NCBI GenBank assembly: GCA_907163375.1
Contig: CAJQUW010001859.1
Coordinates: forward strand, 620,001-684,000
DNA from: Prostheceraeus crozeri
Lineage: Eukaryota > Platyhelminthes > Polycladida > Euryleptidae
Direction of reading: 5' to 3'
DNA: 64,000 bases
Program-made: the position numbers and the translations under genes
Notes under the pieces: generated by a model
What the model was told of the DNA's origin: nothing
The model's database searches: none
Seen by the model: only the letters and a program-made list of their open reading frames with translations
Shown here: piece by piece, positions 23,012 to 58,247 of the stretch
How positions within the stretch are numbered: the stretch's first letter is position 1
Layout: each line of letters starts with the position of its first letter

Positions 23012-23040
23012 GTCTATTCATTTCCCGAGAGCGAACCAAC

Positions 23041-23704: not shown

Positions 23705-23956
23705 TTATAGTGAGGAAAAGTCAAGTGGAAGAACCTTTAAGTCATTGTAGACTTTGTAGCACCTTGGTCGTTTTGGGGCATCGGGTGCTCTTCTCACGTG
23801 CGTTGTTTTTGGTGTAAAATCACCATTACTCCACACAACTTGCACAATCTTGCCTTCATCGCAGGTCTCCTTCTGATCACAGTCTTCATCCCACTCGTCG
23901 ACCACTTCAAAGATTTTGTTAAAGATCTCTAAGGCGGGAGATGTACCTTCCATCAT
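23705..23956 (-). CDS. Small acidic/cysteine protein, copy 1 of an inverted duplicate
   Basis: 83 codons. The C-terminal half (KTTHVRRAPDAPKRPRCYKV, then YNDLKVLPLDFSSL) is almost identical to that of the gene at 24120-24359 on the other strand; the N-terminal thirds differ, apart from a shared CDQKETC-G-K block. A TATA-like CATATAAAAG lies about 50 bp upstream of the ATG on the minus strand. The two genes are head to head over a spacer of about 160 bp, a bidirectional promoter layout. No family recognised. Confidence 0.6.
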   Translation of the reverse strand: MMEGTSPALEIFNKIFEVVDEWDEDCDQKETCDEGKIVQVVWSNGDFTPKTTHVRRAPDAPKRPRCYKVYNDLKVLPLDFSSL

Positions 23957-24119
23957 GAGATAGATGAGAATGAGAAGTGCTTCAATTTTCTGACTTTTAT
24001 ATGTTTGTCAACAATGAATTCCTCAACAACCAATCAGAATGATTCTAATTTAGATGAAGACTACATAAGTCGGAAGATTGTAGCACTTTTATTCACATTA
24101 TGCGAACTAGCACACCAAG
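23957..24119. promoter_or_regulatory. Bidirectional promoter between the inverted small genes
   Basis: A 163-bp spacer separating divergent starts at 23956 and 24120. It has TATAAAAG-like sequence on the minus side (about 23997-24006) and CTACATAAGTC on the plus side (about 24060). Confidence 0.4.
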
Positions 24120-24359
24120 ATGACAAACTCAGAAACACCATGTAATTTTGTGATCGTTAATGAGTGGTGTGATGAAGACAAGTGTGATCAGAAGGAGACT
24201 TGCGAAAAAGGCAAGACTGTAAGAATTGTCTGGATAGATGAAGAGTGGACACCGAAAACAACGCGCGCGAGAAGAGCGCCCGATGCCCCTAAACGTCCAA
24301 GGTGCTGCAAAGTCTACAATGACTTAAAGGTTCTTCCACTTGACTTTTCCTCGCTATAA
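24120..24359 (+). CDS. Small acidic/cysteine protein, copy 2 of an inverted duplicate
   Basis: 79 codons, paralogous to the minus-strand gene at 23705-23956. The last 40 or so residues are nearly identical, including RRAPDAPKRPRC and the terminal PLDFSSL. The shared block CDQKETC suggests possible metal binding or disulphides, but no known fold is evident. A polyadenylation-like AATAAA lies about 20 bp after the stop. Confidence 0.6.
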   Translation: MTNSETPCNFVIVNEWCDEDKCDQKETCEKGKTVRIVWIDEEWTPKTTRARRAPDAPKRPRCCKVYNDLKVLPLDFSSL

Positions 24360-24617
24360 AGTATATGTGCTTCAATTGTAAATAAATCTAAAGAAATACA
24401 TGTCTCTGCTTTTGATATTCAATCCCTTTATCATGTATCCTCAGTGATAGAGGTAGTATTTAGGAAAAAATGATTGTATCTATCATCAACTGGTATGATT
24501 TATACTGAGCTGTCAAATGATCAGATTTTCACTATGATGTTAATGATTATGTATGCTACATCACCCAGAAAAAAGTGAAAACAGACAGATGAAGCAAATA
24601 AACATTTATTAAGAAAT

Positions 24618-25026
24618 TTACAAATAATTCAAAAGTTCCTCGTAAGTCACATTGTCCCATAAATTCTCACAACCACTGCGGTTGCACTCCAACTGCCTTA
24701 ATCGTTCCTCTGCCGCGACCAACACACCATAGATGTAATTCCATTCCACTTCATTCCGGGGTTGGGATAATGGACTGTACCATCTCCGTATATCATGGAG
24801 AAGGTTAATGTCAGTTTACCTCTTCCTGATTGTAAAGCATGTTTTTCCACCGCACATAAATCATTTCTAACTCTTCTTGCTCCTTTAGATCTGGTAATTC
24901 CAACTTTGGCATATCATCCAGCCTTCTCTGCTTCTCCACGTTTGCCTTTTTCGGAGCGGGAGGGCAAGTTGGTATGCTCGATGCAGGCACTGGTGATTCT
25001 TGCGAGAGAAGTGATGGTGAATCCAT
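24618..25026 (-). pseudogene. Left-arm accessory gene, function unknown, frameshifted
   Basis: ATG 25026 opens a frame (Ser/Pro-rich start, then LPDLKEQEELEMIYVRWKNM) that stops at 24811. A second frame offset by one base carries on from about 24810 to a TAA at 24618 with a coherent sequence (NEVEWNYIYGVLVAAEERLR; YEELLNYL) and an AATAAA just downstream. The simplest reading is one gene of about 135 codons with a single-base frameshift near 24812. It is divergent from the polymerase gene. No family recognised. Confidence 0.5.
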
Positions 25027-25300
25027 GACTTTGAAATGTATGCCATAAACTTGATTTCTTAGTCCTTAAGTATAGGCAAGCAACCAATCAAAATGAATAG
25101 CCAATGAATGTTGAGTATGGGAGAATAAAAAAGGGAAAAATAGACTAGATTTCATTCGATATTTGAGATGTATTGACACTAAGTGAGCTTCTCTCTCCAC
25201 CCAAATATAATCTAACGTTCCTGACGTATCCTATTTTGGTTTGAGTTTATTACTACATTCTGACTATCAAAGTATCAGATTTTGACTTAATTTCGTTGAA

Positions 25301-28300
25301 ATGGTAAGTTAAGGATTTCATCACTCATCTCCTTTAAACGTTAGGCTAATAGCATCTTTCTCGATTTCAGCCATCTACGTCATCATCAAAGCGCTCCCTT
25401 CTCGAGGAAGCTTCACAACTGTTGAGTGAAGGTAGGTTGTAAAACTAAACTATGACTTCAATGGAGATGACAGAATGATTTCTCCTCCAGATGATGACAG
25501 TTCCAACTCAAGTGCGCAGTCACGGGAAGCATCCAAAACATGTGCTGATTGTGGACATATCTTTACGAGGAAGCGCGATCTCACCCGACACATCAGACAA
25601 CGTGTGTGTCAACCCAAGCCATCATCAATCTCCCGAGGTGAGGATAATTCTATTCAACATGTCTCCTTTACTTGTGACTTTTGTTTCCAATCTTTTGAAA
25701 CAGGTTTTGAGTTATCTTCACATAGACTTCACCACACACACACAAATGATAGTTATAGCAGCAGCACCTCCTCTATTCGACTAACTGAAGTATCGCTCAA
25801 TAATGTAGTGAGAAATTGCCAGATGGAATCTTCAGAAACTATTGCTGATTTTCCGGAGTGGTTCCATCAAAATTCAGCATTGATGGATTCGCTCTTTCAT
25901 AATTTAGAGCAGTTCAGAATAAAAGCGCTCATCTACCTTAAAATAAAATATGTTAAAGTTGATTATCATACTGGTGAAATAGTACAGAGGTTGGTGTTTT
26001 ACATGCCCTCCTCTCCTGCTACAGAGGTAGTCGATAAAGAAACTTGGTTAAATTTTCACATCCGAGGACTAAAATCAAATATTGATAAATTTAACGAGCG
26101 CGATAGTGGTCTAATTTTTGATGGCATAGAATCTGCGAAGTTTAAAACTACTCTATTAGAAAATTACCGTGGTCGAGTCTCCTTCAATCTTCCAAAAACG
26201 TTAAGAGCTAAGAATGCAGCCATTTCTGTTGATTTGTGAATCAGAGTGCTTTAAGTATGCGGTATTGTCTATTCTCCACTATCATGATGTACAGAACAAC
26301 CGTTTCCGTAGAAGCAAATATCATGAATGGGAGAATGAATTGAAGTTTGATGACTGCAATCGCGAAGACATGAAGTTTAAAGATATAGAGAAATTTGAAA
26401 AATTAAATGAAATTAAAATAGTTGTTCACATCTGGCAAGAGAGGCTTAAGGGTGTGCGCTACAACAAACGTTCATCAACTTATGATTGGGTAGTCAATCT
26501 CCTGCTAGTATATCAAAATGATAGTGAAACTTGGCATTCATGTGGTATTCCTAAAATGACTCGACTATATTCCCACTTAACATCTAGAAGAGGAGAGTAT
26601 TTCATATGTGACCGTTGTATGCGTCCCTTCTGGTCAAAAGATAAATTTGAAACCCATTATGAATGGTGTAAGCGAATTAAACTGCAAATAGAATGCATGC
26701 CCAAAGATAATGAGTTTTCATATAGAGAGAAAGGTGATGAATTAAGTCCTCTTCGTGTCATCTATGCTGACATCGAATGCCATATTCATGATAATACCCA
26801 TAAAGCGGCAGCCATATCATGTTATGAGGTATGGAATGATTACTTCAAAAATAAAAATAATAAAATGCACGTCTGGCAAGGTGAGGATTGTATACATAAA
26901 TTCTTACAATTCCTCGAAAGCGCTGTCAAATTTCAGCAAAAATATGATAGTGAACTCCAACGCAGATCATTGAATATGTCAGCAGATGATCAAGTAAAAT
27001 TTGAAAGTTGTAAAGTCTGCCCAAAATGTAATAAAACGTTTGATGAAGATAAAATCAAGAAAGTGCGCGACCATGATCACATCACTGGTAAATTTAGAAA
27101 CGTGCTATGTACAAGATGTAATTTTTCACTGATACTGAAACGGCGTACTCTACCCGTTATTTTTCATAACTTCAAAGGTTATGACAGCCATATGATAATA
27201 AAAGGGGGTTAGGAAAAGTGAAAGAGTGGAAGTTAAGTGTAATAGCTCAAACGAGAGAAAAGTTCATGGCCATGACAGTAAAAGTAGCAGTTGACAAAAC
27301 TAAAGAAAATAAGACAGTCTATTTTGATATAAAATTTTTAGATTCCCATCAATTCATGGCTTCATCACTAGCATCTCTCGTTCAAAATCTTAAGTCTCTT
27401 CCACTAACTCAAAATTTGAAGAAACAATATCCTAACTTGACGGATGAAGTCATCACACGCAAAGGAGTGTTTCCATATGCATATTTTGATGCAATTAGTA
27501 AACTCGGCGAGACTTCTCTTCCATCGATAGACAAATTTAGAAATGATTTGACTGGTGTAGAATGCAAGGTAGAAGATTACAATCATGCTCAAGTTGCATG
27601 GACAAAATTTGACTGTCAAACGTTTGGCGATTATATGATCGCCTGTCTAAAATAAGATGTATTTTTGCTGGCTGATGTATTTCAGGAGTTTCGACGAGTG
27701 GCATTAGAAGAAGATAAATTAGATCCTCTTCACTTTGTCAGTCTTCCAGCTATGTCATTCCAGTCTGCTTTTGAAATGACTGGAGAGACCATCCATCTTT
27801 TGCAAGATCCAGAGATGTATAATTTATTTGAACGAGGAATTCGCGGTTGTCTCACATTTGTAAATAGGCATCAAACAAAATCAAAAATAGTGGATGATGA
27901 TCAGATTCATCTTAAGTACTATGACTAGAATAATTTATATGGTAGTTCACTGTCCAAACCTCTACCTCACTCTGAGTTTAGCTGGTTGGCTGATAATGAA
28001 ATTCAGCATTTCTCCAACCCTTCAAACATACTAGCTATTCCAGATGATGGTGATTTGTGATATTATTTTGAGACAGATCTTATCCATCCAAATATTATTA
28101 AAAGTAAAACTGTGGATTTTCCACTTACACCCGAATCAGGCGAAGCGACTGAAGATGTGTTTTTGGACTTTATGAAACAATTTCATAAAGATTTAGAAGA
28201 GAGCGGACAGCCCAAGTATAAGCCTTGCCGTAAACTTTTGCTTACTCAATTTGATAAAGAAAATTATTTAGTCCACTTCTCTATCTTAAAATTTTATTCA

Positions 28301-29258
28301 GAAATGGGGATGATTTTAAAAACAGTTCACCGCATTATCAAATTTAGACAGAAAGCCTTTCTGAAACCTTGTATTGATAGTAACAGTCAGAAACGTGCAC
28401 TAGCCCAAAATAGTTTTGTAAAGGATTTCTATAAATATAAGAATAATAGTTTTTTGGTAAGACGATGGATGATGTTAGAAAGCGTATTAACTATAAACTT
28501 GTGAATCATAATGATAAATCTCAGAAGTTAGCGACATCACCTCTCTTTATTGATAGAGATATTATAGATGATGAGTTGGTTGGTGTTAAAATGATAAAAT
28601 CAGAAGTAGTTGTGCAAGCCCATCTACATTGGACAAGCTGTGTTAGATTATTCCAAGCTTGAAATGTATCAACTCTTCTACAGAATATTAAAACCATGCC
28701 CTCTAATTAAAGACGTGCTTTTGCTGGGCGGTGATACCGAGTTTCTTTTTAAGTATCGGCGCTCAGAAAAAGTTAAATTTCAATGAAGTAGGAAAATCTT
28801 TAGAAAAATATTTTGATACATCAAATTATCCTACAGATCACCCACTATACTCTACTAAAAATAAAGAAAAATTAGGATGGTTTAAAGATGAAATAGCAGG
28901 AAAGGAAATTAAGGAAATAATTCTTCGTCCTAAAATGTATTCTATGAAACCAAAAGACTCCAGTGACAGTATTAAGCGCGCAAAAGGCATGTCTAAATCG
29001 ATTGTTGTAGATATGAAACATGGGGTCTATAAGATAGCCTACATAAATAAGATTATAACGTTTGTCAACATGACCATCCTAAAATCAAAAACACATGAGG
29101 TAAAAACTCATACATTTAGGAAGCGAGCACCTTCAGCGTGGGAGGATAAGAGGTGTTGGATAGGACATAACACATCTCTTCCACATGAACATCCTGGCAC
29201 AAACATATCACCACCCAAAAGAATTAAACTCACACTACCAAATTCAGGAGATGTGTAA
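25301..29258 (+). pseudogene. Protein-primed DNA polymerase B (Polinton PolB), disrupted
   Basis: Predicted exons: ATG alone at 25301-25303, a 67-bp intron (GTAAGT...TTTCAG), exon 25371-25431, a 59-bp intron, then exon 3 from 25491. The N-terminus carries zinc fingers (CADCGHIFTRKRDLTRH; CDFCFQSFETGFELSSH) and a domain with the FNERDSGLIFDGI signature. Later come a third finger (CDRCMRPFW), exonuclease motif I (YADIEC), an HNH-like CPKCNKTF...VRDHDHITGKF block, exonuclease II (IFHNFKGYDSHM), exonuclease III, motif A (YYD...NNLYG), motif B and a C-terminal FDTSNYPTDHPLY block. Breaks: frame changes near 26215, 27205, 28454 and 28735; in-frame stops at 27653, 27926 (inside motif A), about 28058 and 28660. 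The motif C region near 28730 is altered. It normally replicates the element from protein-primed ends; this copy cannot. Confidence 0.92.
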
Positions 29259-29473
29259 ATAGATTCATTCTTAAATCAGTATTTTGATGATGTTTCTTGT
29301 TGATATTCATTGTTGCTTTATGTATCGCTTTAGATTGCACTTTCTTGTGAATATATGCCTACGGTCAGTTCATTCCCATTATATCTGTGAAAAGACTTTC
29401 CCACTTTGTCAACATTTCTTCAAAACACTTTTTCATACAAATCTTTTTATTTCAATAAAACTTTACAATATCT
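29259..29473. terminator. Convergent 3' region between PolB and penton B
   Basis: T-rich spacer between converging genes, with AATAAA (about 29453) serving the plus strand. No coding signal. Confidence 0.4.
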
Positions 29474-31020
29474 TTAGTTTGTTTTCCGAAACACTAAAGT
29501 TATAAGGGATTTAGTATCTTTCACATGGATGCACTCATGTAAATCATTTGTCATTTTGAGAGAAATAGACGGGATGGTTTGTTTGATAACAGGATGATAG
29601 AAAATAGGTTTAAACATCTTTTCAACGATTCCATAGGAAGCGTCTTTATCATTAATGAAATTGCGTAAAATGTATTCTTTTTTCTCACCAACAGAAATAG
29701 GTGAAATCAGATCACTTTGAATGTAGAGATGTTGTTCATGTTTATCAAGTGTCATTGGTATTCCTACACCAATCGTGTATGAAGTAGTAAACTTATCCCG
29801 TAGCAATGAAAAGCCAAAGAGTTTTTTCAAGTTGTTACTCAATTGACATTGAATGTGATCACCCAGCTTCAGAACAGCACTTTGATTTTTAATTAAAAAC
29901 GAAATGTGATGTGCCTTTGCATCGTGTCTGCTTTTCAACACTTGCTTCAACTTATGTTGTATATGTGGATTTATGACACGAATAAAGTTTTCAACTGTAT
30001 GATATAGACCCGGCATTATATTGATAGCAACTTTATATTCTTGATAAGATTGGTAAATTTTCTTGATGCGATCACCATAGATGTCCACCCACCATTCATC
30101 ATTAACTGAATCAGTTTTAGTGTGATATTCATGAGAAGCATAAACCACACCGTTTCCATTAATAGGCGATGCATGTCTTACAAAATGACGCAAGGTTGGA
30201 GAGAAATAAACTGTAGGTTGCTCATTATATTTCTGAATAACCAACTTATCTTCGTCCGCCATAATTTTCTCTCCATACTTCTTACCCACAGTCTCATTCC
30301 ATCGCTTTACTAACTCAATAAGTGTCAAAGGCTTGACACCACGCTTTTTCAAAATGATGCGTTCTTCGCATTCTACAACATCCTCATCAAGTATTATAAA
30401 TTATAATGAAATTTGTTTATCCGTTTTGAATAGATTTTTTCAACATTTGCAATAGCCATTGATGTCAGATGCAGACTGTGTCCAAAACCGAGATGTTGAT
30501 AGAATTCATTATCCAACCTCAATGTAAGACCTTTAAAAGAGTGAAAACGATAGAAGTGTCTCCCGTGCCATTCATAGGTGGCAAACTCATAAACTTTCTG
30601 ACCCTTATTTTTCATAATAGAAGCATTGCCACTATTGAACACCTTAATGATTTTATCTTCATCTGATGATCCATAATAATCTGATTTTAACTGATTCCAT
30701 TCATAATTCCACTTTCCATCTGATGTTAAATTGCATGGAGACTTGAATGCTTTATTCATCGTCATTCCATCATGGGTGCGAGGAGTCAATACCATTTCTT
30801 CCAATTCATTCACATTCTGAATATTACTATCATAACAAATGCTGGAAACACCTACTTCCCACTCACCTTCTAGAAGTAATGGACGATTTAATTCTACTCG
30901 ATAGTCTGATGGTTTATTTTTGGGAAATTTATTCATAGAAGCATTACTGGGCAAGTAGATTAGAAACGAGTCCTTATTTTCACTTTCCATATTATTCACA
31001 TTGGAAACATATATTTCCAC
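29474..31020 (-). pseudogene. Penton-like minor capsid protein, copy B
   Basis: Two frames form one gene. 31020-30394 carries the typical N-terminus (SFLIYLPSNASMNKFPKNK... LEGEWEVGVSSICYD). 30352-29474, open further upstream to about 30390, carries the C-terminal part (LYIQSDLISPISVGEKKEYI, ending in LITLVFRK). This matches the Polinton minor capsid protein, the single-jelly-roll penton homologue that closes capsid vertices. The frame changes near 30394, so the copy is frameshifted there, unless the two halves are translated separately. It lies directly behind a second, related gene (copy A). Confidence 0.75.
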
Positions 31021-31029
31021 ACTTTTGCA

Positions 31030-32433
31030 TTAACTCTTTATTGGAAAATGGAGTGTGATACTTGTTGCAGCATCTTTATGAAAAGGAATCAGCGCACCAG
31101 CATCGTCATAAATTGCAATATCAATTTGTGGTACATAGTTTGATTTCAAGTTTGTATAATGCACTTTCTGAAAAGTATGCTCAGATAGAGTGCTATTGCT
31201 TTTTGGTTGGTAGGGTATCATTGCTAGAAGTGGAGCTACAACATCTCCCACACGTACATCTTCACCAATATTGGAAAATATCTGAAAATAGTTAATACAA
31301 CGCGATAACGATGTGCTCGCGCTAGCTTTTGTTACAGTAACACTTTTAAAAGTATTTTGATCAAATCTCAAAATGTCCATTAGGGTATTGTCCATAATCA
31401 GCTCAATATTTTTCCCACTTACGCTAAGAGACAGAACACCTTCTTTTTCAGAAAAAGAAATATGCTGTTCATTAATCACTTCATTCAAATAATTAATAGT
31501 CAATTTCACTTAAGTGATAATGCGAGGTGCAAACACTCTTGTTTTATGTAAGATACCACCTAAAGGATCTATACACTTTCTGTATAAAGATACGGACCAT
31601 TCTGTATCAAATTGATTTGAACTATTATGTCCCAGATAGCGCATATTAAATTTTCCATGAACAGCTGCAGAACGATGTCGGAAGAACTGATGAAAATCTT
31701 CGGAACAAACCAATACTAGATCATCATCATTTAATTTCTTGATTACGATATTATTAGGCCTTTTGTTGTAAGTTAATGTTGCCACTTATTCACCATCTAC
31801 TCGAAGGAGATAATTAAATTTCTTCAATGATGCTTCAGGAGTCATGTTCGTCTTTCTTGCCTTAATCACAGTCTTCTTCACCAACGTCTTTCATTTTTCG
31901 GAATGAGATCCACATCATAGGCTTTCTCTTTGTAAATTAAATTTTTGCAACCTCTCGGATAGTAATTAGCTTTATAATTATCATAGCTTGTCAAGGCGCT
32001 CGCAAAGCAACCTAAATCATTTTTTAAACTAGTACTCTAAGCAACAATCCAATCTTTATCAACTGCATGATGCATGTGATCATATTCACCATTGTGGGGA
32101 GTAAACTCGACAATGTGTCTACATGCTTTATTCAGGAAATCAAATGCGAATTTTTTTACATGTTGAGAAATCTTTCTTCGGCCATTTCGGAATGTAAACT
32201 TGACATCCCTCTTCACACTGATAGGCATCTGTACGTCTCATATTAATAGTCATCACTTCATGATCAAAAGTATAGACATAGTTACTGTGAACAACTTGGG
32301 TGACGCCTACTTCCCACTTCCCATTCAGCTGTAGTGTATTATCAATGGGAGTAGAAAATATAGCAGCTCGACTGCCAACAAATCTATTTGTTGCCACATT
32401 GCTAAGCAAAACATGATAGAATGACATTTTCAT
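31030..32433 (-). pseudogene. Penton-like minor capsid protein, copy A
   Basis: The start at 32433 (FYHVLLSNVATNRFVGSR, then LNGKWEVGVTQVVH) and the end at 31030 (EDVRVGDVVAPLLAM; LIPFHKDAATSITLHF) are the two conserved parts of Polinton penton-like proteins. In between, the frame shifts near 32150, stops at 32037, and is interrupted by an in-frame TAA at 31510-31512 between two otherwise continuous stretches. It is paralogous to copy B, from which it is separated by about 10 bp, so this element carries tandem minor capsid genes. Confidence 0.75.
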
Positions 32434-32467
32434 TTCGGTAATCTATACATTACCAATTTGCATAACA

Positions 32468-32777
32468 TCATGAAGACTTGGAATTTGGGACTTTCTACAA
32501 TATATTAAAGTTGATCGCGATGGAAACGTTCAATTCAAGAATTCTTATGGAAATACATCGAAAGGAATTACATTAACATGGTGACAATTTTTCAATCTTA
32601 ATGATATCATGAGGGATTTGGAATATCTCAAAAAGTTGAAATTCATCTACTTGGGTAATCAAGTTTGGCTTCAACATCACAGAAATGAAATTCAAATCTA
32701 TCATTCTCATCTCTCCATCTATTTCTCATTTCGCAAATGTAATTGGGAAAAATATAAAAGATGTGTAAATCGCTCCA
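32468..32777 (+). pseudogene. PC4/p15-like remnant, copy A
   Basis: The frame reads DFLQYIKVDRDGNVQFKNSY, then SKGITLTW, a TGA, then QFFNLNDIMRDLEYLKKL. Order and spacing resemble the single-stranded-DNA-binding domain of transcription coactivator PC4 (strand, 'GKKGISLT', 'EQW..L'). It is the upstream copy of a tandem duplication that also includes the TATA box at 32753. Family assignment is by eye and tentative. Confidence 0.4.
32753..32760 (+). promoter_or_regulatory. TATA box, duplicated promoter 1
   Basis: TATAAAAG in the context GGGAAAAATATAAAAG. It is a duplicate of the promoter at 33138, with ATG 32780 shortly after. Confidence 0.5.
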
Positions 32778-32779
32778 TT

Positions 32780-33170
32780 ATGTCATTCATTCGACGCGAG
32801 TTCATCGCATTGCTTCAACACTTCGACACCATCTTCAACACAATGTCACACTCCATCATGAAGACGGAAATTGGATTTCCTACAATATGTTGAGATTGAT
32901 CATGACCGAAACGTATGTTTCAAAGATTATACTGGAAATGTAGGAAGAGTATTTGCTTTATCATATCGACATTTTCCGTCTCTAAATCATTTTATGAAGG
33001 ACTTACAATACTTCTATATGAAAAAACATTCACGCATAGGAAATCGCATACGGTTGCGACTCAACAAACAGCGAATTCAAATCTATCATTCACAACTATC
33101 TACCTACTTCCCATTTCATCAAGGCAGTTGGGAAAAGTATAAAAGGAAGATACATCGCTCTATTTACTAA
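32780..33170 (+). pseudogene. PC4/p15-like protein, copy B, frameshifted
   Basis: It opens at ATG 32780 (MSFIRREFIALLQHFDTIF) and shifts frame near 32880 into FLQYVEIDHDRNVCFKDYTG, then NHFMKDLQYFYM. It is clearly related to copy A, but the 'KGITLT' strand has diverged. The last 30 codons overlap the DNA that forms the TATA region of the next gene, so the true stop may be earlier. Its position next to a TBP-like gene fits a transcription role; that is inference. Confidence 0.4.
33138..33145 (+). promoter_or_regulatory. TATA box of the TBP-like gene
   Basis: TATAAAAG, 43 bp before ATG 33181, within GGGAAAAGTATAAAAGG, matching the duplicated promoter at 32753. Confidence 0.6.
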
Positions 33171-33180
33171 TTTCTTCATC

Positions 33181-33726
33181 ATGAAACGTCATCGCTACAC
33201 CATCGTCAACATTCTCCGACGCATCAGACTCTACACGAAAATCGATCTCGCAACATTACATCAACAAATTCCAAACAGAAAGTATTATCCGGGTCGACCG
33301 CAAATGTTAGTGGTGAAGATGAGCAATTTACGGAATCTTCAACTCTTCCCAAATGGAACTGTTCAGATTCTCGGCGCCCTTTCTCATTTATCAGCGCGGT
33401 TAATGCGCCTAGAGCTGCAGAAACTACTACGTCGGATATGGAAGAGGGAGAAGTGTGTGATGTCGAATCTGACTGTGGACAATATGGTGATCTCTACTCA
33501 ACTGAGTGAAGATGTATCGTTTTTAAAGATTCATACCAGCAGTCTCAATTTGTGTTATGAACCAGAAGTTTTTCCCGCGGCTCTTATTAGTTGTTGGTTA
33601 CCTGTGCATGTGGCAATCTTTCATAATAGTTAAGTTATCATTACTGGACTGAAATCTGAAATGCAAGCAGATACGATCCTAGACTATCTAATCGAGTATG
33701 TACATCACCAACGGATTGTAAAATAG
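33181..33726 (+). pseudogene. TATA-binding-protein-like protein, one nonsense codon
   Basis: 181 codons with one in-frame TAA (33631-33633); element 2 has a lysine codon there. The protein shows the two direct repeats of the TBP saddle. Repeat 1 is TIVNILRRIRLYTKIDLATL, then YYPGRPQMLVVKM, then FPNGTVQILGALS. Repeat 2 is VMSNLTVDNMVISTQLS, then LCYEPEVFPAALIS, then VHVAIFHN, then VIITGLKS. The YEPE-FP motif and the 'F.NG..xx.TGxxS' strand-helix junctions are diagnostic of TBP. Length fits the conserved TBP core (about 180 residues) with no extra N-terminal domain. It reads toward the protease gene, 29 bp away. In cells TBP nucleates transcription on TATA boxes; here it may direct transcription of the element's own TATA promoters (inference). 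Confidence 0.8.
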
Positions 33727-33755
33727 AAACAATTTTTATTCCAACATGATGCTTT

Positions 33756-34228
33756 TTATTTCAAATCATTATAGAACATACAAATCATCTTTTCATTAGA
33801 AGATGGATTACATGAAAACTTTTGAATAACAGATTTAAATTGGTGTACATGTAAACGTTTTAAGATGAAGTACAGTACAAAAGCACCACATGTTGATGCA
33901 GTATGCAGTATGCAGGATGTTGCAGTATGCGCTCATTTCGTTGATATTGACGATTATGCTTTCTCAACCACTGCTGTGTTGGTATATTCGGAGGTTAAGC
34001 AAGAGAGTCAAATAGTTCACCACGTCGGTTTTCTCCAATAAAGATCGCTTTCCAATGCTCACCGCCTAAATTCTGCGAATGAGTGTTTAGCACAATAAAG
34101 ATGGGATAGTGATTTACTGCAGGTGGTAAGGTATCCAGCGAATAGACATTATCGAAAGCTTTCAACGTCGCTTCATCTGCATTACGCTACACTTTAGTCT
34201 TAATATCATCAGCATTCAACCAACTCAT
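33756..34228 (-). pseudogene. Adenain-like maturation cysteine protease, disrupted
   Basis: Homologous to the intact gene in element 2 (63362-63823). The start overlaps the capsid stop (TAATG). A TAG replaces a glutamine codon early in the gene (about 34187-34189), a second stop follows the FDSLA motif, and a GCAGTAT-type repeat (33897-33930) is inserted just before the catalytic-cysteine region and shifts the frame. The family cuts virion precursor proteins. This copy is dead. Confidence 0.85.
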
Positions 34229-35515
34229 TAGCGATTATAGTGAAGAATTACGTCACGATACTTAGTTATTTCAATATTTGAATCAAAGACTGCATAAATT
34301 AATACATTGATCGTCTCAGGTAGTTTTCTTTTGAACGTCAAATCCAAACGAATATTATGAGGAACGTTAGCTTGACGATAAGGTGCACTAATATTGCTGT
34401 CGGCAGTCAAATCAAATGCATAAATAGTATATCCATTTTTAAACTCTTTCATTGTAAGTCCGTTGGTATCGTCTGTGTTGTAAAAGCCAAAGACATTCAT
34501 ATAATCAATATAACTGCGCAGAAAAAATTGATAAACAGTAAAATTTGTTTTATAGGGTGGACCAGGATGACTAACACCATTTACACGCAAAGCAATTTCA
34601 CTTAAATTGTTGTGTTTGAAGTTGAAAGGATTCTTCTTGACATTACCATTGAATGTATCATTTACAACCATTGTTACCATGAGGTGCTTTGGCGCTTCCG
34701 ATGGAAAAAGACCATCTTTCATAAACCTTTTTTGATCTTTAGGAATAGTAAATGTGAGAAGCTTTGTATATTAAAGGGATAAATGGCATTGTTGCGGTTA
34801 AGACTCTCAGCATGTCCTCCAATTACACTTGGATTAGCCACCACTCGACGAATGTATACTGTAATATCTTCCACATGATTTTTAAATTTCACAGCTGAAG
34901 CAAATGCATTCAACAAAAATTCAGGCTTTTTCAATGTAAGTTTGAGTCGCATACTGGCATTTCAGAGTAAAAATTTTGATTGTCTGAAGAAGTCTAAATT
35001 AAGTGGACCATATAGCTGACATACTTTACTATCTTTAATCAAAGCAGATAGCTTTACAAAACCAGTGTTTGTCTCACTATCAAATAGTGCTGCTTGATCT
35101 CTATACCATCCCATCGCTTCCATATTTATTCCATTGTTGTTTTGAGCTGCTGGATCAAACTGTGATAGAGCATTCAAATATGCTTTATAGGGATAATCGC
35201 TTTGACCACCTTCCACCTGTTGCTCTCCAATGGTTAGAGAAACATCGCGAAATAATGTAGCCAGCGGTAAATTGTTCAGACCAACTTTATGCGCATCTCA
35301 ATTTTAGTTCTATCTTCTTGTTGAATTCTAAACCTCACATCAACCATCGCGTAACTCAAATCAATGTAATCATCGCTAGCGTCAGGAATAACAAATTCAA
35401 TAAGAGCAGTATTCTCAGCTGTACGAGGATGATAATCTACAATACTTGAACTAAGAATATCTGTCTGTATTGCTTGTTGATCAAACAAACAAAAGCCTGA
35501 AGTTTTACACTCCAT
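34228..35515 (-). pseudogene. Major capsid protein (double jelly-roll), disrupted
   Basis: Four minus-strand pieces (35515-35276, 35216-34962, 34952-34719, 34722-34228) together correspond to the intact 425-residue protein in element 2, with the same start (MECKTSGFCLFDQQAIQTDI). Breaks lie near 35277, 34960 and 34720-34780. It would form the hexon-like capsid shell. Gene order (protease, capsid, small basic protein, integrase) is the same as in element 2. Confidence 0.9.
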
Positions 35516-35517
35516 GA

Positions 35518-35982
35518 TTAGAAGTTATGACAGCGTCGTCGTTTAGCACTTGATGAAAGTTTACAGCGCGCGCGACGTTTGCGTGAATGCTTTTTCTTAG
35601 CTTTGCTTGATGTTCGCTTCTTACCACCTCCGCCCTGGTTTCCTTTTCTTCTAAGATTCATTCGTTTAGGTGCTTTCTTTTGTTGAGTAGAATTAAAAGT
35701 TTGCTGTAATGTTCTTAAACCGCGCTCCTTCCCACGATTTAGTAAAGTACTCTTTACATTTTTACCACTGGTAATATCATTAACAACATCACCAGCAAAG
35801 CCAACAGCATTATTGAAAAAAGTTCGTTTTAAAGATCTTCCGACAGTAGATAAGAAAGGTGCTACAACAGATTTCAGCGCACCAAATATGCTACCTCCAC
35901 GTTGACGGCGGTAGCCGCTGTAAATTGCACCCACACCACTTAGATAGGAAGGGCGTGAATGAAACGATGCAGTCGGATTCAT
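35518..35982 (-). CDS. Small basic virion-type protein (GG-rich, arginine-rich tail)
   Basis: 154 residues, open throughout. The N-terminus is SGVGAIYSGYRRQRGGSIFG, then an amphipathic/hydrophobic part (LKSVVAPFLSTVGRSLKR; NAVGFAGDVVNDITSGKN), then a lysine/arginine-rich tail. A 'YxGxxxQRGGG' start followed by a hydrophobic helix and basic tail is common to small capsid-associated proteins of Polintons and adintovirus-like elements, probably core or membrane-active. It is intact although its neighbours are broken. Confidence 0.65.
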   Translation of the reverse strand: MNPTASFHSRPSYLSGVGAIYSGYRRQRGGSIFGALKSVVAPFLSTVGRSLKRTFFNNAVGFAGDVVNDITSGKNVKSTLLNRGKERGLRTLQQTFNSTQQKKAPKRMNLRRKGNQGGGGKKRTSSKAKKKHSRKRRARCKLSSSAKRRRCHNF

Positions 35983-36022
35983 AGCTTAGACCTTGACACT
36001 ACAAGTTATTTCTTTGCATAAA

Positions 36023-37111
36023 TCACTGACGATCGCGTAGATGAAAGATGTCTGCACGACGCATCCAAGAGTTCATGCTTGAAGGATAACCGACCCATTT
36101 AACAAGACACCATTCTTCACCTTGTCGTTTTTTACTTCGAATGATTTTCTCTACTAAATATGTTTCACTTTGAGTGACCAACTCAATATCATCACGATAA
36201 AAGCTACCATCAATTTCTTCATTATCGTAATCTTTCAACTTGTAAGTTGTTGGGGAGTCTTCTTTATTGATACTTGAAACTGTGAAAATTTCTTCTGTCC
36301 AATTCGGGAGATAACCTTTGGCAAAAACACTCTTAACTTTTGATATGCGAACTTCATCACCTATTTTCGCATCAGTTTTTGCATTATTACGCTTGCGTTG
36401 GAATGTTTCACGCACTCTATCTACGTTGTCAGCATTCACATCCGCTGGTCTGAGTCCAATAGAACGATGAATAGAGTGATTGTAGGCATAAAGCGTATCT
36501 TGTAGAACCTTTGCCCAATTTTGTGTTAAGTTGGCAGTAAAATGTCGCCACAAGCGATTTTTTGATGTGCCATTAAAACGTTCAACTAGTGCAGCCTTAT
36601 AAGCACTCTTTACACTAAACAGCTCAATGTCATATCTCGAAAATAATCTTCCCACATGCTGATTTTCAAACTCTTTTCCTTGATCACTCTGAATTCTCTT
36701 TGGAACACGACCCTCTCGGAAAATTGACTGGAATGCCTTTGCTACTCGTTTGCCTTCTTTAGTTTATAAAGGTTGAGCCCACGCATAACGCGAGAGAATA
36801 TCAATTACGATTAAGATAAAATTGTGTCCCGAGTTATGTTTTGAAATAGCGGCAACGTCACACAAATCTGCTTGCCACTGTTCATCAATGTCATGAGCAA
36901 TATAATGACGGGTCCGGTACTTCTTTTTCGCTTGTTTGTGGAGTGTATATGTAGCTTCACCCTTTAACCATTGTTTAACTTGTGAGTGTGGAAGACCGCT
37001 CGCTTTTGACAATGTCTTTATAGATGCAAATCCTGCAGGATGTTTTACATCATAATATATTGACTTTAAAAGTTCATCCGATGACGACTGACTCTTTCTC
37101 CTTCTTCTCAT
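36023..37111 (-). pseudogene. Retroviral-type integrase with chromodomain, one nonsense codon
   Basis: The frame is continuous from 37111 to 36023 except for a TAA at 36764-36766, where element 2 has lysine. It carries QADLCDV (first catalytic Asp), SDQGKEF (second), AALVERFN (catalytic Glu), then a C-terminal chromodomain-like YLVEKIIRSKKRQGEEWCLV...SMNSWMRR. It inserts the element into chromosomes. Only one lesion is visible, so decay is recent or weak. Confidence 0.92.
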
Positions 37112-37277
37112 GTTTTTTCTTTCTTACCTTTTTGCATTTACAGCAATCACAGGATTTATGGGATTTACGTTTACATTGCTTAGGAGTCTCATTGTGAGAG
37201 CTGGCACAGCAAGTACAAGCTACAGTTACAATTACTTCCGGCGGCTCATTACATGGTAGGCAACACAACTGCTTCAC
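37074..37277 (-). CDS. Cysteine-rich small protein upstream of integrase
   Basis: 67 residues with paired cysteines (CCLPCNEPPE; CTCCASSHNET; CDCCKCKKVRKKK) and a basic/acidic tail. It overlaps the integrase start by 38 bp in another frame. Also open in element 2 with the same Cys pattern. Possibly zinc-binding; family not recognised. Confidence 0.55.
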   Translation of the reverse strand: MKQLCCLPCNEPPEVIVTVACTCCASSHNETPKQCKRKSHKSCDCCKCKKVRKKKHEKKEKESVVIG

Positions 37278-37278
37278 A

Positions 37279-37938
37279 TTAATAGTCTGAGAACATGTAT
37301 TTCTTTGGTGGAGTTCTTCTACGTCGTTCTCTTCCCCTTGTTTGCTTGATGGGTGTGGGAGGGGATTTAGAAGGTGATCTCTTAAACCAATTCCTTGGCA
37401 TTTTCATTTTACTATTAACCGGTGAAGTAGATGAAGTAGCATTAACTGCTGAAATAGAATCAAGTTCTTTCAATGTTTCATTATTCAAAGCAAATTTTGG
37501 ACTATTGTGCTTTTTCAGTAGTTTAAGAAAGTAAGACCAACCAGATGGGACATAGCCTTGACGGTGCTTTCTGCGTGTTGCATACTGAATCAAGTCTTCA
37601 TGACGTGAAGCGTTAATAATTTCATTTTCATCTGAAATGATTTCACCTCTATCATTCACAGTGAGATATGGCTCAATGCTGTTGAAAAGGGACATCGCAT
37701 GTGCGCGAGATGCTAAAGGTGTAGCAGTCGAAACAGAGTCACGCATCTTCTTCTTTAAACTTTTTAATTCTTCGACAGTTTCCGACTGTAATAATACAGC
37801 ACGATGTGGATCCTTGATATGCGCATTTTGCTGATAATTTAATTCATACTTATAAATTTGATTTGCGAGAGGTTGCATGGCAGTCAATTGCACATATTGA
37901 TCCTGAGGAATGACAACCATGCGAGAATAAGAACTCAT
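37279..37938 (-). CDS. Uncharacterised Polinton protein between ATPase and integrase
   Basis: 219 residues, intact. It starts MSSYSRMVVIPQDQYVQL, overlapping the ATPase stop by four bases. It has a conserved middle (LFNSIEPYL; LIQYATRRKHRQGYVPSGWS) and a basic proline-rich tail. Also intact in element 2 (230 residues). A 'P.GW..FLKLLKKHN.P' block recurs in Polinton proteins of this position as I remember them, but the function is unknown. Confidence 0.6.
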   Translation of the reverse strand: MSSYSRMVVIPQDQYVQLTAMQPLANQIYKYELNYQQNAHIKDPHRAVLLQSETVEELKSLKKKMRDSVSTATPLASRAHAMSLFNSIEPYLTVNDRGEIISDENEIINASRHEDLIQYATRRKHRQGYVPSGWSYFLKLLKKHNSPKFALNNETLKELDSISAVNATSSTSPVNSKMKMPRNWFKRSPSKSPPTPIKQTRGRERRRRTPPKKYMFSDY

Positions 37939-38563
37939 AGTCTGTAGATAATCATAGGCTCTTTCAAAATATCACTTCGAAATCTAAATTCTTCCGGACA
38001 CTCCTGTGTAAAATCAATAAATAAGTAACCGTGTGGTTTTTTAGTTGCTGCTTGACAAATTTCAATCAAGGCTTTTGAACCTCGTGGCGCAGCTTGTCGC
38101 GCTAAAATTTGAAATTGACTTCTATTTCGTGGATTCTTAAAAATAGCGTAATAGTGTGTATTCAGGTTTCGTGTGCGTGCTTCTTTCCCATCAGGAAACA
38201 AATTTTGCGTGATTTACTTTTGAAGTAGATTATAAAGCATCTTTTGTGATGTGCTGCGCGAGTGAACATATCTGTAACATCTTTAGAATTCTTGCTTTCT
38301 TTTAATAGTTCATCCAATGCAACGACATCATTGGACTGAATCTTATCCACTGGAATGTTTCCTTTATTTCGAATAAAGTTACGACGTTGCAATTCCTGAA
38401 AGAGTGATGGTTGGTAAATACTATAACACCAAGTCACTCGATTGATAAGTTCCTTAAACAACTCCCTTCTTTTATCCAATAAATTCAGCGTGAAAACAGT
38501 TTTACCTGCATGAGATGGACCTGATACAGTCAGAACTTTATCACATTGAAGTCTGAAATCCAT
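37935..38563 (-). pseudogene. FtsK/A32-type packaging ATPase, frameshifted
   Basis: ATG 38563 (MDFRLQCDKVLTVSGPSHAG with the Walker A GPSHAGKT). The frame breaks near 38205, just after the Walker B region and before the conserved Gln/Asn sensor; the C-terminal third continues in another frame to 37935. Element 2 has the intact version. The enzyme would pump DNA into the capsid. Confidence 0.9.
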
Positions 38564-38594
38564 TTTATTACTTTGAGATTCAACATTTGCATAA

Positions 38595-38946
38595 TTAACG
38601 CTTAGGATTAAAGATCCTACCCAATAGGTCACCTACTACAGGAGCTAACAGCAGAAGTAACACTGAAAGGAAACCGCCCTTTTCTGTTAGAGTTTTCCTC
38701 TGTCTTTGAAGGGCAACTTTAGGATTGGAGATGAATCGCAATTTCGTAGTATGTCGCTTAAGTAACTTTCGTTGTTGTGGTGATAATTTCTTTGTCCTCA
38801 ACCTTCTCACATGAGAAACATTTTCTCGAATAAATTTATCATTAGCATGTCGTATAGCATTATATCGCTGAAATTCCTTTCATTCGTTGAAGAGCTCGAA
38901 TGGCCTCAGAAAATTTTGAAGACTTTCGACTTTTGCGTTTTGCCAT
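38595..38946 (-). pseudogene. Basic protein with hydrophobic C-terminal helix, frameshifted
   Basis: It starts at 38946 (a lysine/arginine-rich MAKRK beginning) and shifts near 38880. The rest reads LRTKKLSPQQRKLLKRHTTK, then NPKVALQRQRKTLTEKGGFL, then a hydrophobic stretch to 38595. Same architecture as the intact 118-residue protein in element 2. Confidence 0.6.
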
Positions 38947-38996
38947 TTTTCTCTTAACCATTGTTACAACTTGATTTTTCCACATTTGCATAGGTG

Positions 38997-39320
38997 CTAA
39001 CGTTTATGACAGAAGTGACACTCAAAATGAGTTATATCACAGTGACTGCATTGACAAAGTTGAATACAGTATCGTTTGAAACAGCGCTGGCAGAAAGTAT
39101 GCTTACATCTCTTAAAGAGGCGTTTTTCACTTCCATCCCTTCGCTTACGTACATCGCACATATTTTCACTCTTGCTAACAACTTCTAAAGCAAGTCTTTT
39201 TGAATACATGAACTTGCTAGCCTTTTCTAAATAATAGACACATGTGCAGAAGGAATATACTTCGAGAGTAAGCAGACACAACTCGAAAACCAATTGTGCT
39301 ACGATCAAGTACCATTGCAT
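38997..39320 (-). CDS. Membrane-anchored RING-like zinc protein
   Basis: 107 residues from the conserved ATG at 39320. A long hydrophobic segment at residues 3-30 (WYLIVAQLVFELCLLTLEVY) looks like a signal anchor. The second half is a RING-like array: CDVRK, a 10-residue spacer, CKHTFCQRC, then C..LCQCSHC and CHFC. Also open in element 2, where the first pair is CDVC; here the second cysteine of that pair reads R, so zinc binding may be weakened. Confidence 0.6.
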   Translation of the reverse strand: MQWYLIVAQLVFELCLLTLEVYSFCTCVYYLEKASKFMYSKRLALEVVSKSENMCDVRKRRDGSEKRLFKRCKHTFCQRCFKRYCIQLCQCSHCDITHFECHFCHKR

Positions 39321-39322
39321 CT

Positions 39323-39733
39323 TTAAGTTTCTTTTATACAAAGTTGAATGTGAATATGTGAAATCGCTTCAATCACTAAACTGCTACCATGATGGTTAAA
39401 TGCATCAAGACGTTGAGCAATTTTTCCCATATGTCTTTCAAAAAATTCGTCGGTATTATCTACAACTTCCATCGAATAAGAAGCAAAGTGGAAGAAGCGA
39501 TCTTCTACCTCTTCTTTCCCAAAATGGCTGAAATGAATTTTTGCAACTAATCTCGCTATTACAATTCTATTAGAAAACGTATCCATTAACTTCAAAAATA
39601 GAGTGCTAGTATCACCAATAACTGATTTGATGTTGATCTCATCTTTATGAAAAGTTATCACATAATCTCGAATAGTTCCCTATAAGCTTTGTCTATGAAA
39701 ACTTAATGTTCCACAATCATTTGAGAAAGACAT
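39323..39733 (-). pseudogene. Stand-alone PolB-N-domain-like protein, one nonsense codon
   Basis: ATG 39733; a TAG at codon 18 (39680-39682) replaces a lysine codon of element 2; the rest is open to 39323. It carries ARLVAKIHFSHFG and DAFNHHGSSLVIEAISHIHI, the latter matching the FNERDSG-LIFDGIE signature in this element's own polymerase. A downstream ATG could still give about 112 residues. Confidence 0.6.
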
Positions 39734-39819
39734 TATCATCCTTCATCTGTCCCACCCGTTGCATGAAAATAATAAATCTCTTCATAAAGCATTTATTAAA
39801 CGACTTTAACAAGCATGCA

Positions 39820-40368
39820 TTACAAATTTTGGGTTTGAAACAGATAAAATAGATACAGTTGGTATCTATCATATAAAGAGCAATGATGACCAAACATTAC
39901 TTTAGCAGTGTTGAGATATGGAGGAAAAAAGCATTGATTATGAATATAGCGACTACAAAGAACATTTAAAATAGGAACACTCAATTCCTTAAAACGTTTA
40001 GTGACTTCATGATAGTGTTGATTAACTCTACTATCCCAAGGTGGAAGTAGAATATCATTGATGATTAGATTTGGAAATAGCTTCTTCTCCGTAGCAGGAT
40101 CATTGCAAAAGATACATACAACATTAAAAGCTGCTAACCATTTTTTAAAGTCAATAAGAAGAACACATTCATTAGAAAAGCCATAGTCTTGCAAGTATTG
40201 CTGATTAAGTCTATGGATGTGTTTTCTCGCCAAGCTATCAGCGCTGGGATCACACTTGGCATGTTGATGGTAGACACTAACAATTTGATACGACCAATTG
40301 TCCATAGCAATAGCACTGAGCTCCTGTACAGGTTCACCCTCACAATCCATAAAAATGATGATAGACGA
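39820..40368 (-). CDS. DEDDh exonuclease-like protein
   Basis: Open frame of 176 codons from ATG 40350. Six further in-frame codons lead back to a TTTCCTTTTTAG acceptor at 40369, where a spliced start is possible. The motif DCEG near the start fits exonuclease motif I (DxE), and HCSLYDRYQLYLFY near the end fits motif III (HxxxxD) of DEDDh 3'-5' exonucleases. The middle (LLIDFKKWLAAFNVVCIFCN) would hold motif II. Strongly conserved with element 2 and intact in both. Confidence 0.55.
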   Translation of the reverse strand, partial: SSIIIFMDCEGEPVQELSAIAMDNWSYQIVSVYHQHAKCDPSADSLARKHIHRLNQQYLQDYGFSNECVLLIDFKKWLAAFNVVCIFCNDPATEKKLFPNLIINDILLPPWDSRVNQHYHEVTKRFKELSVPILNVLCSRYIHNQCFFPPYLNTAKVMFGHHCSLYDRYQLYLFYLFQTQNL

Positions 40369-40411
40369 CTAAAAAGGAAATTACAAATTTTGACTCATCT
40401 GATGAAGAGTC

Positions 40412-40711
40412 CTATAACATATTACAAAATGATGAAGTACATCGATGCTGTTCACGACAAAATACACAAATAACATGATGGCAGCGAAGAAGTAAAATGT
40501 ATCTGACAAGTCCACGTCTACGACACTGAAAGCACATGAGCGAATTGTCATAAGGTAGAGATAGGTAAGGACTACTGATTCTCCTTCTTTGGCTTGCGTT
40601 TAGGGGTAGCATTCTTCTCCGACTTGCGCCTTGTACCGCTCTCGTTGAGGATTTGATCAATAATGTCATGAACGTCTGGTTGCTTTGGTATATATAGGAT
40701 GGATTGAGCAT
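40412..40711 (-). CDS. Small RING-like zinc protein
   Basis: The conserved part (from about 40620) has the pattern CFQC, a 12-residue spacer, CHHVICVFC, then CTSSFC. This is a compact RING-like set of metal ligands. The start is uncertain: the frame overlaps the 3' end of the terminal gene in another register, and only residues from the SASRRRM-like segment are conserved in element 2. Open in both elements. Confidence 0.5.
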   Translation of the reverse strand: MLNPSYIYQSNQTFMTLLIKSSTRAVQGASRRRMLPLNASQRRRISSPYLSLPYDNSLMCFQCRRRGLVRYILLLRCHHVICVFCREQHRCTSSFCNML

Positions 40712-41346
40712 GGATCGAGATAGAGCCTAATTTGTTGTTCTGGTGATAGCCATAATATATTCCACTGATAAAAAAACCAGTATTCCAAGTGCCTTCTGCG
40801 AGGTCTTCACATCAGATGGGTGTCACTTCATCTCCTTTCTTTTTATAGTATGAGCATCAATGCGATAGTGGTAAAGAAAGCTTTTTACCATCCCATATCT
40901 TTCTATATGGAGTATCACTGTCGTCCCCCGCCTTCCATTCCTTTCTAAGGGGAGTAGGGATGTCCATATTTAATGTTGCAAACTCTTCAATAACATCGAG
41001 TTGGCGACGAATGTATGGATTCACAGGAATGACTACGTAGTCCCCATACTGATTGTTCAATATCTTCACTTCAGTGGAAGGAATCATTCCCGTTTGCAAT
41101 ACTATACTATGATCGTAATAACATATGGATTGTCTAAATTTACGCTGTAGTGGGGTAGGACTATGTACCTTTGTTGTCTCTTCTACTGGCCTCAACATAA
41201 GACGATCTGATTGTAGAGATCCTTGTAACGTCTGAACACTATCTTGTCCTGTAAATGTAGTAGATGTAGTAGATGCCTGAAAATAAAAGAGATGCTATTA
41301 AGTTAACACTCAAGGAAGGAGAGGAAGGAATGTTCCGACTTACCAT
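40577..41346 (-). pseudogene. Right-terminal gene, function unknown, two nonsense codons
   Basis: Exon 1 ends exactly at the ATG (41346-41344), followed by a 67-bp intron (GTAAGT...TTTTCAG, 41343-41277) and exon 2 from 41276. The frame is open to a TGA at 40857 (tryptophan in element 2); a second TGA follows about 45 bp later. The tail is lysine-rich. Conserved parts include VVLQTGM-like and GDYVVIPVNPYIRRQLDVIE segments. No family recognised. A TATA box (TATAAAT, about 41450-41444) lies 100 bp upstream. Confidence 0.65.
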
Positions 41347-41504
41347 TTCATATGGATGATATAATAGGAATGTAGAGGGAGAACGTGCGTCCGACACCTG
41401 TGCGACTCAAAGATAGATTGATTGCCACTCTGAAAACCTCATTATTTATAGAGAAATGCTGGATTCCCATTGGATGTGCTCCTCTTTGGCCAATGACATC
41501 AAGG

Positions 41505-42172
41505 TGATTCCAAATCTGGTCTCAGTTTTCTCGTCCGATGCTTCGTTCGCCCACTGGAGCCCAAAACACAAAACTCAACCTCTGACGGCTCTCTAACATG
41601 ACCAAAAGTCTCAATGTCACTCTCAAGCCTCAGCAAAGGAAGATAGGGCCAAACTGTGCTTTCCAATGAATTTGTGGCACTCTTAGCTTTCAAACGAGCT
41701 ATTGCACGACTTTCTACGATCTCTAGAACCAAAGTTGGAAGAAACGCTGCCGAGGGGGGGGGTCGAAGTTCTTCGTTGTTTGGCCTGCGACTTTGGAAAC
41801 AAGTTCCCTAGACCCAAAATTGGCCAAAAAGTCCAAATCCGCCGTCCATTTTCACGTACGAGGCTTCGTATAGCCGCTAGAGCCACTTTCTCACTCAAAA
41901 ACACGCAAAAACACACCTAAGTCACACCTACACCTAAGTCACACCTACACCCAAGAAACACAACATGTCGACGCAGAATTTCATCAGGAAACCAAATCTA
42001 AATACAAAACAACCCTACAAACAATCCTACACACCAAAAACATTGACCGCCGCCCAAGAACAACCACGACGGTCGACCACGGCACACCCGGCCGGTCGAC
42101 CCAGAACCACAAGAACCCAACTCGTGCTCCAGAGGGGGACGCTGTGCGCAGTTAGGAGGATACCTTACTACT
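41505..42172. repeat. Right terminal inverted repeat of element 1
   Basis: Complement of the left arm, but with a single copy of the 323-bp unit that is doubled on the left. It contains one subterminal motif (41680-41702) and a local duplication of ACCTAAGTCACACCTAC near 41918-41952. Confidence 0.9.
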
Positions 42173-58245: not shown

Positions 58246-58247
58246 AA

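Follow-up and report, generated by a model that had tools for sequence, protein, structure and literature searches.

A TATA-binding protein homologue in Polinton-type elements of a polyclad flatworm, and a recurrent upstream box that it may read

Few promoter-recognition proteins of eukaryotes and archaea are as conserved as the TATA-binding protein (TBP), and its presence among the genes of a transposable element raises the question of what such an element does with a promoter factor of its own. This question is posed by a 64,000-nt stretch of Prostheceraeus crozeri DNA (hereafter the window), in which a preliminary description had noted two related elements, each carrying a frame read as a TBP homologue with both repeats. 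The features of the window are listed in Table 1.

Table 1. Features of the window that bear on the element-borne TBP and its putative promoters.
Feature	Position	Strand	Evidence or remark
Element 1, decayed copy, 22.5 kb between terminal inverted repeats	19681..42169		inverted repeat 19677-20651 / 41505-42173, 98% over 398 nt
ATGCAAA box upstream of ORF starting at 30990 (-)	31024..31030	-	
TATGCAAA box upstream of element 1 'MSFYH' ORF	32457..32464	-	element 2 copy: ATGCAAA at L009:1604
N-terminal part of orphan ORF PA, immediately 5' of TBP	32862..33167	+	dN/dS 0.22 here; 0.81 where TBP is overlapped
TATAAAAG box, 43 nt upstream of element 1 TBP ATG	33138..33145	+	
TBP homologue, element 1, truncated copy	33181..33633	+	PF00352 E 3.8e-13; PDB TBPs from E 3.2e-7
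TBP C-terminus remnant 3' of element 1 stop	33637..33726	+	dN 0.154, dS 0.282 versus element 2, 29 codons
Element 2, opposite orientation, exits the window, left end approximate	54440..64000		83.6% inverted match 33577-41762 / 55805-63999
TATGCAAA box upstream of basic small-protein ORF at 58623	58576..58583	+	
TATGCAAA box preceding the selected ATPase start (59011)	58981..58988	+	
Packaging ATPase candidate, A32-like	59011..59628	+	PF04665 E 0.022 (sub-threshold); family B homologue 66% identical
Integrase with chromodomain	60365..61585	+	rve PF00665 E 1.3e-10; Chromo PF00385 E 6.4e-7
ATGCAAA box upstream of ORF 61627	61589..61595	+	
Major capsid protein candidate	62085..63362	+	position and reading; family B homologue 54% identical
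Putative cysteine protease (Ulp1/adenain-like), facing the TBP gene convergently	63362..63823	+	PF02902 E 0.0012, 19.2 bits (cut-off 20.7); PF00770 E 0.043
TBP gene 3' part, element 2, open frame, on to 64395 past the window	63853..64000	-	PF00352 E 3.5e-21 (whole natural frame)

That the frame starting at 33181 encodes a TBP homologue is practically certain. A PF00352 search had been named in the preliminary description as the check on this reading, and a missing match as the outcome that would speak against it; in fact both copies gave significant matches, each in two stretches (49.5 bits, cut-off 22.9, for element 1, and 75.3 bits for the 181-aa protein of element 2). The signatures FPNGTVQILGA and IFHN, on which the two-repeat reading had been based, were recovered as well, YEPE-FP corresponding to YEPEVFP in element 1. 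The element 1 protein reaches solved TBPs by sequence alone, and the family profile aligned over columns 1-177 (E 1.3e-23) with PDB entry 2z8u, which we take to be the archaeal TBP of Methanocaldococcus. A two-lobed saddle fold is predicted for the element protein from this homology. A chance match is excluded, because 45 of the 59 candidate proteins for the 150-aa query (one of them the element 2 fragment) and 336 of the 3177 for the profile were matched at E ≤ 1e-3.

The element 1 frame comprises 150 codons followed by an in-frame TAA (33631), and this copy is therefore truncated; beyond the stop the frame reaches 33726, and the pieces on either side of it were compared separately. Element 2 lacks this stop, as had been stated: its gene (L009:354-896, minus strand) is a single uninterrupted frame of 181 codons without introns. 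However, only about its last 49 codons are visible in the window, the other 395 bases lying outside it on the same contig. The further claim that TBP is present in both elements was confirmed, with the qualification that the element 1 copy is truncated, and in element 2 the gene is convergent with the protease ORF.

The carriers are called Polintons because of their integrase, protease, terminal inverted repeats (TIRs) and size. They have the chromodomain integrase, the TIRs and the size (15–25 kb) in common with the Polinton/Maverick/adintovirus set, together with a putative Ulp1/adenain-like protease, whose PF02902 score in element 2 falls slightly below the curated cut-off. The two elements are 83.6% identical across 8.3 kb. 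The ends of element 1 were placed by eye at AGTAAGG, with TIRs of about 0.7–1 kb, and no matching 6-bp target duplication was seen in the flanks of this one decayed copy with ends so set. The DNA polymerase (PolB) and the capsid protein of the TBP-bearing elements are candidates, assigned by reading. For the capsid candidate we obtained no Pfam and no PDB sequence match, and only a marginal and implausible PHROG match; the polymerase pieces of element 1, which are broken and were assigned to PolB by eye, gave no PolB match among those scanned. PF03175 occurs elsewhere in the genome, unlinked to TBP-bearing elements. The start of the ATPase candidate was taken at 59011, not at the listed TTG 58963, and element 2 also encodes a small protein weakly resembling adenovirus mu.

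Several other features of the two elements were recorded. The first piece of the polymerase region of element 1 (26214-27209, plus strand) contains an Endonuclease_7 (Endonuclease VII) domain (PF02945, E 1.7e-8), and the polymerase pieces are preceded by a C2H2 zinc-finger ORF (25475-26236, plus strand; zf-C2H2 E 9.8e-6). Both elements also have two short ORFs that are rich in Cys/His and RING-like, at 39000-39368 (-)/58200-58568 (+) and 40415-40726 (-)/56916-57161 (+); those at 58242-58568 and 56916-57161 gave no Pfam match. The terminal regions (54440-56139 and 19931-20665) contain tandem repeats of approximately 305–325 nt, which are roughly 70% alike between the elements.

A search of the 2.05-Gb assembly (14165 contigs) revealed massive amplification of the TBP gene. 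An exact 29-mer of it occurred 2446 + 2328 = 4774 times, a count that may include duplicated haplotypes, and the backward control gave 0. With the open TBP as a query, 150 of 11900 candidates were scored, and none of these 150 contained a stop, was shorter than full length or fell below 98% identity; likewise, the 150 of 16370 candidates scored for the ATPase were all open and 100% identical. The pairwise divergence of TBP averaged 0.42% (maximum 1.8%) over those of the 30 best-scoring loci with a comparable stretch (26), and these values are biased low because the best-scoring copies were used. Among the matches listed, the ATPase and a convergent TBP were found by eye 3.7–4.5 kb apart on 12 contigs, in 10 of which the spacing was 4229–4232 bases (4231 in element 2). 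The TBP-bearing element has thus undergone a recent and very large expansion. If the copies are mostly complete, at about 20 kb per element they could amount to several percent of the genome.

Comparison of 26 loci (25 places, since L005 = L061) distinguished three families: A, which is the type found in the window (9 loci), B (4) and C (13). The TBP of family A is approximately 43% identical to those of B and of C, and B is approximately 50% identical to C. Between A and B the protease is about 41% identical, a lower value than that of the capsid candidate (Table 1). Wherever a locus extends far enough, families A and B display the same gene order, i.e. integrase, small ORF, capsid candidate, protease, TBP (reversed) and the 'MSFYH' ORF. 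The expectation that TBP would stand beside the protease in other elements thus held for families A and B but failed for family C, in which the gene mostly follows other ORFs and converges on the polymerase pieces. This placement on the polymerase side was noted at L006, L008, L043, L044, L049-L051, L053, L054, L058-L060 and L062. It follows that in family C the gene has moved or the element has been rearranged, and the different placement, together with identities of 43–50%, indicates that TBP was kept through the rearrangement.

Over the 150 codons compared between elements 1 and 2, dN was 0.063 and dS 0.274 (dN/dS 0.23), in spite of the decay of element 1, in which the stretch of 29 codons past the stop gave a dN/dS of 0.54. 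The gene has thus been under purifying selection between the two window elements, and the element TBP is very probably functional.

In the host genome, a TBP gene was identified on contig C9306 (123.7 bits) and a TRF2/TBPL1-like gene on contig C3829, and the other TBP matches examined, including L004-L008, are element genes. TRF2 is a bilaterian trait, which agrees with an animal host. For the TFIIB family the whole genome yielded 7 candidates, with 4 matches confined to two contigs, compared with thousands of element copies; a gene carried by the element would be expected to give many more.

Of the 336 relatives detected with the profile, at least 120 carry PF00352 (all of the matches listed), and we assumed that the database relatives reside in Polintons. 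Searches of IMG/VR with the element TBP, its profile, the host TBP, the ATPase or the capsid candidate confirmed no relative. A 68-row tree set a selection of 62 family rows apart from 6 cellular TBPs, with a single branch of support 100/100 between them. The branches leading to the element and cellular TBPs (approximately 2.8 + 1.1 changes per column) are too long for the origin to be placed within the cellular TBPs.

These results make it hardly credible that the gene is a recently captured copy of the host TBP or functionless cargo, a reading that was already disfavoured. The stop in the element 1 copy is what would be expected of cargo, but a dN/dS of 0.23, the single intron-free frame, the wide divergence of family A from B and C, the deep split from host TBP in the tree and residue changes common to 120 relatives (see below) are not. 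On the evidence of these comparisons, TBP has long belonged to a clade of Polinton-type elements and has been maintained there by selection.

Which surfaces of the protein have been conserved was assessed in 120 relatives, 9 of the 129 listed database proteins having been left out as shorter than 130 aa. Positions were mapped through the host TBP, and the yeast numbering and residue roles (intercalating Phe, central Asn, TFIIB-contact Glu) were presumed to apply to the element protein. Three of the four intercalating Phe are kept (F116 in 120/120 relatives, F190 in 119/120 and F207 in 120/120), whereas the fourth, F99, is replaced by Pro in 113 of the 114 relatives without a gap at this position. 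The central Asn are likewise retained (N159 in 118/120; N69 in all 99 ungapped sequences), as are P191 (120/120) and T215 (119/120). Of the residues that contact TFIIB, E186 is present in 117 relatives, E188 in all 120 and L189 in 106, the other 14 having I or V. Changes are concentrated elsewhere: L114 has become Q in 109/120, V122 has become Q in 120/120, and T124 is L, M, F or I in 120/120, while on the opposite lobe L205 is A, T or S in 119/120. The C-lobe face of TBP reads the 5' half of the box and the N-lobe face the 3' half. Judged from these counts, the C-lobe face of the element protein is nearly canonical except at L205, and its N-lobe face has been rewritten.

The element protein therefore resembles cellular TBPs, both eukaryotic and archaeal, in its two repeats, bare-core length, three of the four Phe, both Asn and the TFIIB-contact Glu pair, and differs from them by F99P, L114Q, V122Q, the replacement of T124 by L, M, F or I, and the lack of a long N-terminal tail. 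With TRF2/TBPL1 it has in common that it is a TBP relative with an altered DNA face; however, three of the Phe sites are occupied by W, H and Y in the host TRF2/TBPL1-like fragment (G000:C3829:151570-151938), and the element TBP retains those three Phe.

The TBP gene itself is preceded by a box of the ordinary kind. TATAAAAG was found upstream of it in 5/5 family A copies, in 3/3 family B rows (two of which represent one place) and in 6 of the 8 family C copies printed, at a distance from the ATG of 43 nt in both window elements and 46 nt in B. Among 24 database relatives with a frame extending at least 20 residues upstream, 11 have Ile-Lys 13–14 codons before the Met, i.e. at the ATA AAA place; the remaining upstream frames are mostly unrelated extensions. 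Such boxes are not enriched across the window (7 occurrences of TATAAAAG versus 4.35 expected, and 22 of TATAWAAR versus 19.8).

Upstream of other element genes a different box was observed. In the 60 nt before the gene starts, the best 7-mer of family A was ATGCAAA (6/19 genes, P 9.3e-8), located 31–48 nt before the ATG in the sense orientation. The best 6-mer of family B was AAGCAA (7/13 genes, P 1.6e-7), followed by TATTCT (6/13 genes, P 2.6e-6). None of 2000 random sets of windows drawn from the elements reached the best value for A with k = 7 and 6 or for B with k = 6, and 1/2000 did so for B with k = 5. The gene starts used in these tests were chosen by hand, and that of the ATPase had been moved to 59011 after its box was seen; with the ATPase excluded, ATGCAAA was found before 5/18 genes (P 2.3e-6, 0/2000 random sets) and ATGCAA before 6/18 (P 4.6e-6, 1/2000 random sets). 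ATGCAAA is absent before 13 of the 19 family A genes, including those of the capsid candidate, the protease and the integrase. The sites of family B that best fit a matrix included TTAAGCAAAG (-38), TTAGGCAAAT (-38), TGAAGCAAAT (-36), TTAAGCAATA (-39) and CTAAGCAAGG (-35). A matrix derived from family A separated the upstream regions of B weakly (Mann-Whitney p 0.012), and the 7 AAGCAA genes of B overlap only in part with the genes that have a box at -35 to -39. A joint degenerate pattern of the TTAWGCAAA type, drawn after both families had been seen, covers 7/19 genes of A and 7/13 of B. The de novo search comprised families A and B, and in family C the TBP promoter alone was considered. Several element genes other than TBP thus have a TTAWGCAAA-like box where a TATA box would stand, and the box is common to two families. 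TBP boxes do not usually have a GC step at their centre, which speaks against a TBP as its reader.

These boxes may be read in more than one way. If the element protein were an ordinary TBP, it would bind TATA boxes, including its own, and add to or replace host TBP, while the GCAAA-type boxes would serve another factor, e.g. a host POU/octamer protein in family A. We regard this as rather unlikely. ATGCAAAT is the octamer sequence, the TBP gene has retained its TATAAAAG box, and N69, N159 and the three intercalating Phe are kept, all of which agrees with such a role; nevertheless, TTAAGCAAAG, TTAGGCAAAT and CTAAGCAAGG of family B are not octamers and yet lie at -35 to -38, and the N-lobe DNA face is altered alike in nearly all 120 relatives. 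It is quite improbable that the protein is a decoy or inhibitor that occupies host TFIIB or promoters and so damps host transcription. Retention of the TFIIB-contact Glu alongside an altered N-lobe, as well as the very high copy number, would suit a decoy, but the face that binds DNA has been strongly conserved, not lost, and the elements have enriched upstream words of their own.

The best explanation as a whole, which we consider fairly likely on sequence grounds, is that the element TBP routes host TFIIB and Pol II to promoters of the element. The preliminary description had suggested that the element would supply its own promoter recognition; with backing from the promoter motif, we infer that the protein is likely to act as an element-specific promoter factor; that it reads the TTAWGCAAA box directly is a tentative proposal, somewhat on the doubtful side. 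Host TBP would transcribe the element TBP gene from its TATA box. The product would bind the minor groove and bend the DNA by means of F116, F190, F207, N69 and N159, its conserved C-lobe keeping the 5' T of the box and its changed N-lobe (F99P, L114Q, V122Q, T124L) accepting the GC-containing remainder. The 5' T and the A/T steps of TTAWGCAAA do match the kept C-lobe, and the GC remainder coincides with the changed N-lobe, which is a correlation. A proline that favours the first T of the box, a role assigned in PMC12529657, is kept in 120/120 relatives. The retained Glu residues would recruit host TFIIB and hence host Pol II, and part of the packaging and structural genes would then be turned on by a self-made, late-type switch, which by analogy would resemble the use of an altered TATA box by herpesvirus late factors.

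More guardedly still, the rewired transposon TBP and its private box TTAWGCAAA may form a self-contained promoter code that uses host TFIIB and Pol II, has diversified together with the box across families (TTATGCAAA in A, TTAAGCAAA in B) and is present in thousands of copies in one animal genome. A small element whose own TBP is changed systematically on the lobe that reads the 3' half offers a natural experiment, in which TBP specificity can shift while TFIIB docking stays. The proposal also suggests, in testable form, how an animal Polinton might schedule some of its genes and how thousands of near-identical copies might be expressed or silenced jointly.

Divergent two-lobe TBPs in virus-type elements have precedents among large double-stranded DNA viruses. 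Published work describes TBPs in 59% of mirusvirus genomes (PMC10132985; also PMC12768974), the nimavirus TBP wsv303 (PMC10871703), and TBP-like proteins in a phycodnavirus together with divergent ones in poxviruses (PMC7221094), and TBPs are mentioned for mirusvirus-like elements of Cymbomonas. According to PMC7221094, a TFIIB-like protein accompanies the TBP-like one in almost all such viruses, the exception being poxviruses, for which none was reported, and approximately 40% of viral TBPs retain the C.L3.2 Glu. By comparison, the Glu pair is kept here in 117 and 120 of 120 relatives, and the carrier is an element of approximately 20 kb. An orthogonal viral TBP-TFIIB pair does not fit the present case, in which the whole genome has 4 TFIIB-family matches against thousands of element copies. 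A further comparison is with ORF24 of KSHV and other late TBP mimics of beta- and gammaherpesviruses, for which PMC12529657 reports that the Phe are needed and that the altered motif at the TATA position is TATTWAA. The mimics resemble the element protein in the TBP-like domain, the Phe, the polar DNA face and the altered TATA-position motif; by contrast, ORF24 is described there as being without the TFIIB-contact Glu, possessing further domains and acting with five other viral proteins, whereas the element TBP keeps its Glu and is a bare core of 181 aa.

Literature searches combining Polinton or Maverick with TBP returned no title on a Polinton TBP. A word search (TATA and TBP; TATA alone in some cases) of main texts on Polintons, PLVs, adintoviruses and giant transposons found no element TBP; subscription papers, the main adintovirus paper and Repbase were outside its scope, and priority is therefore not established.

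Two orphan ORFs accompany the TBP gene on its upstream side. A PC4/Sub1-like coactivator was considered for PA and PB and rejected, since nothing came near the Pfam cut-off and the best PDB profile match (E 0.039) was to an unrelated protein. The 5 relatives found have no Pfam domain, and one of them is identical. In element 2 (L009:571-1230, minus strand) the PA frame is open across the first ~108 TBP codons, but this overlap is unsupported as coding because of its high dN/dS compared with the part outside (Table 1). The window copy of PA spans 32862-33506 (plus strand), and PB is a tandem paralogue of PA at L009:1244-1618, also upstream of TBP. Finally, the DNA flanking the elements contains two pairs of inverted repeats, 13849-14040 / 14394-14584 (94%) and 47610-48364 / 52504-53313 (about 70%), which possibly represent other mobile elements.
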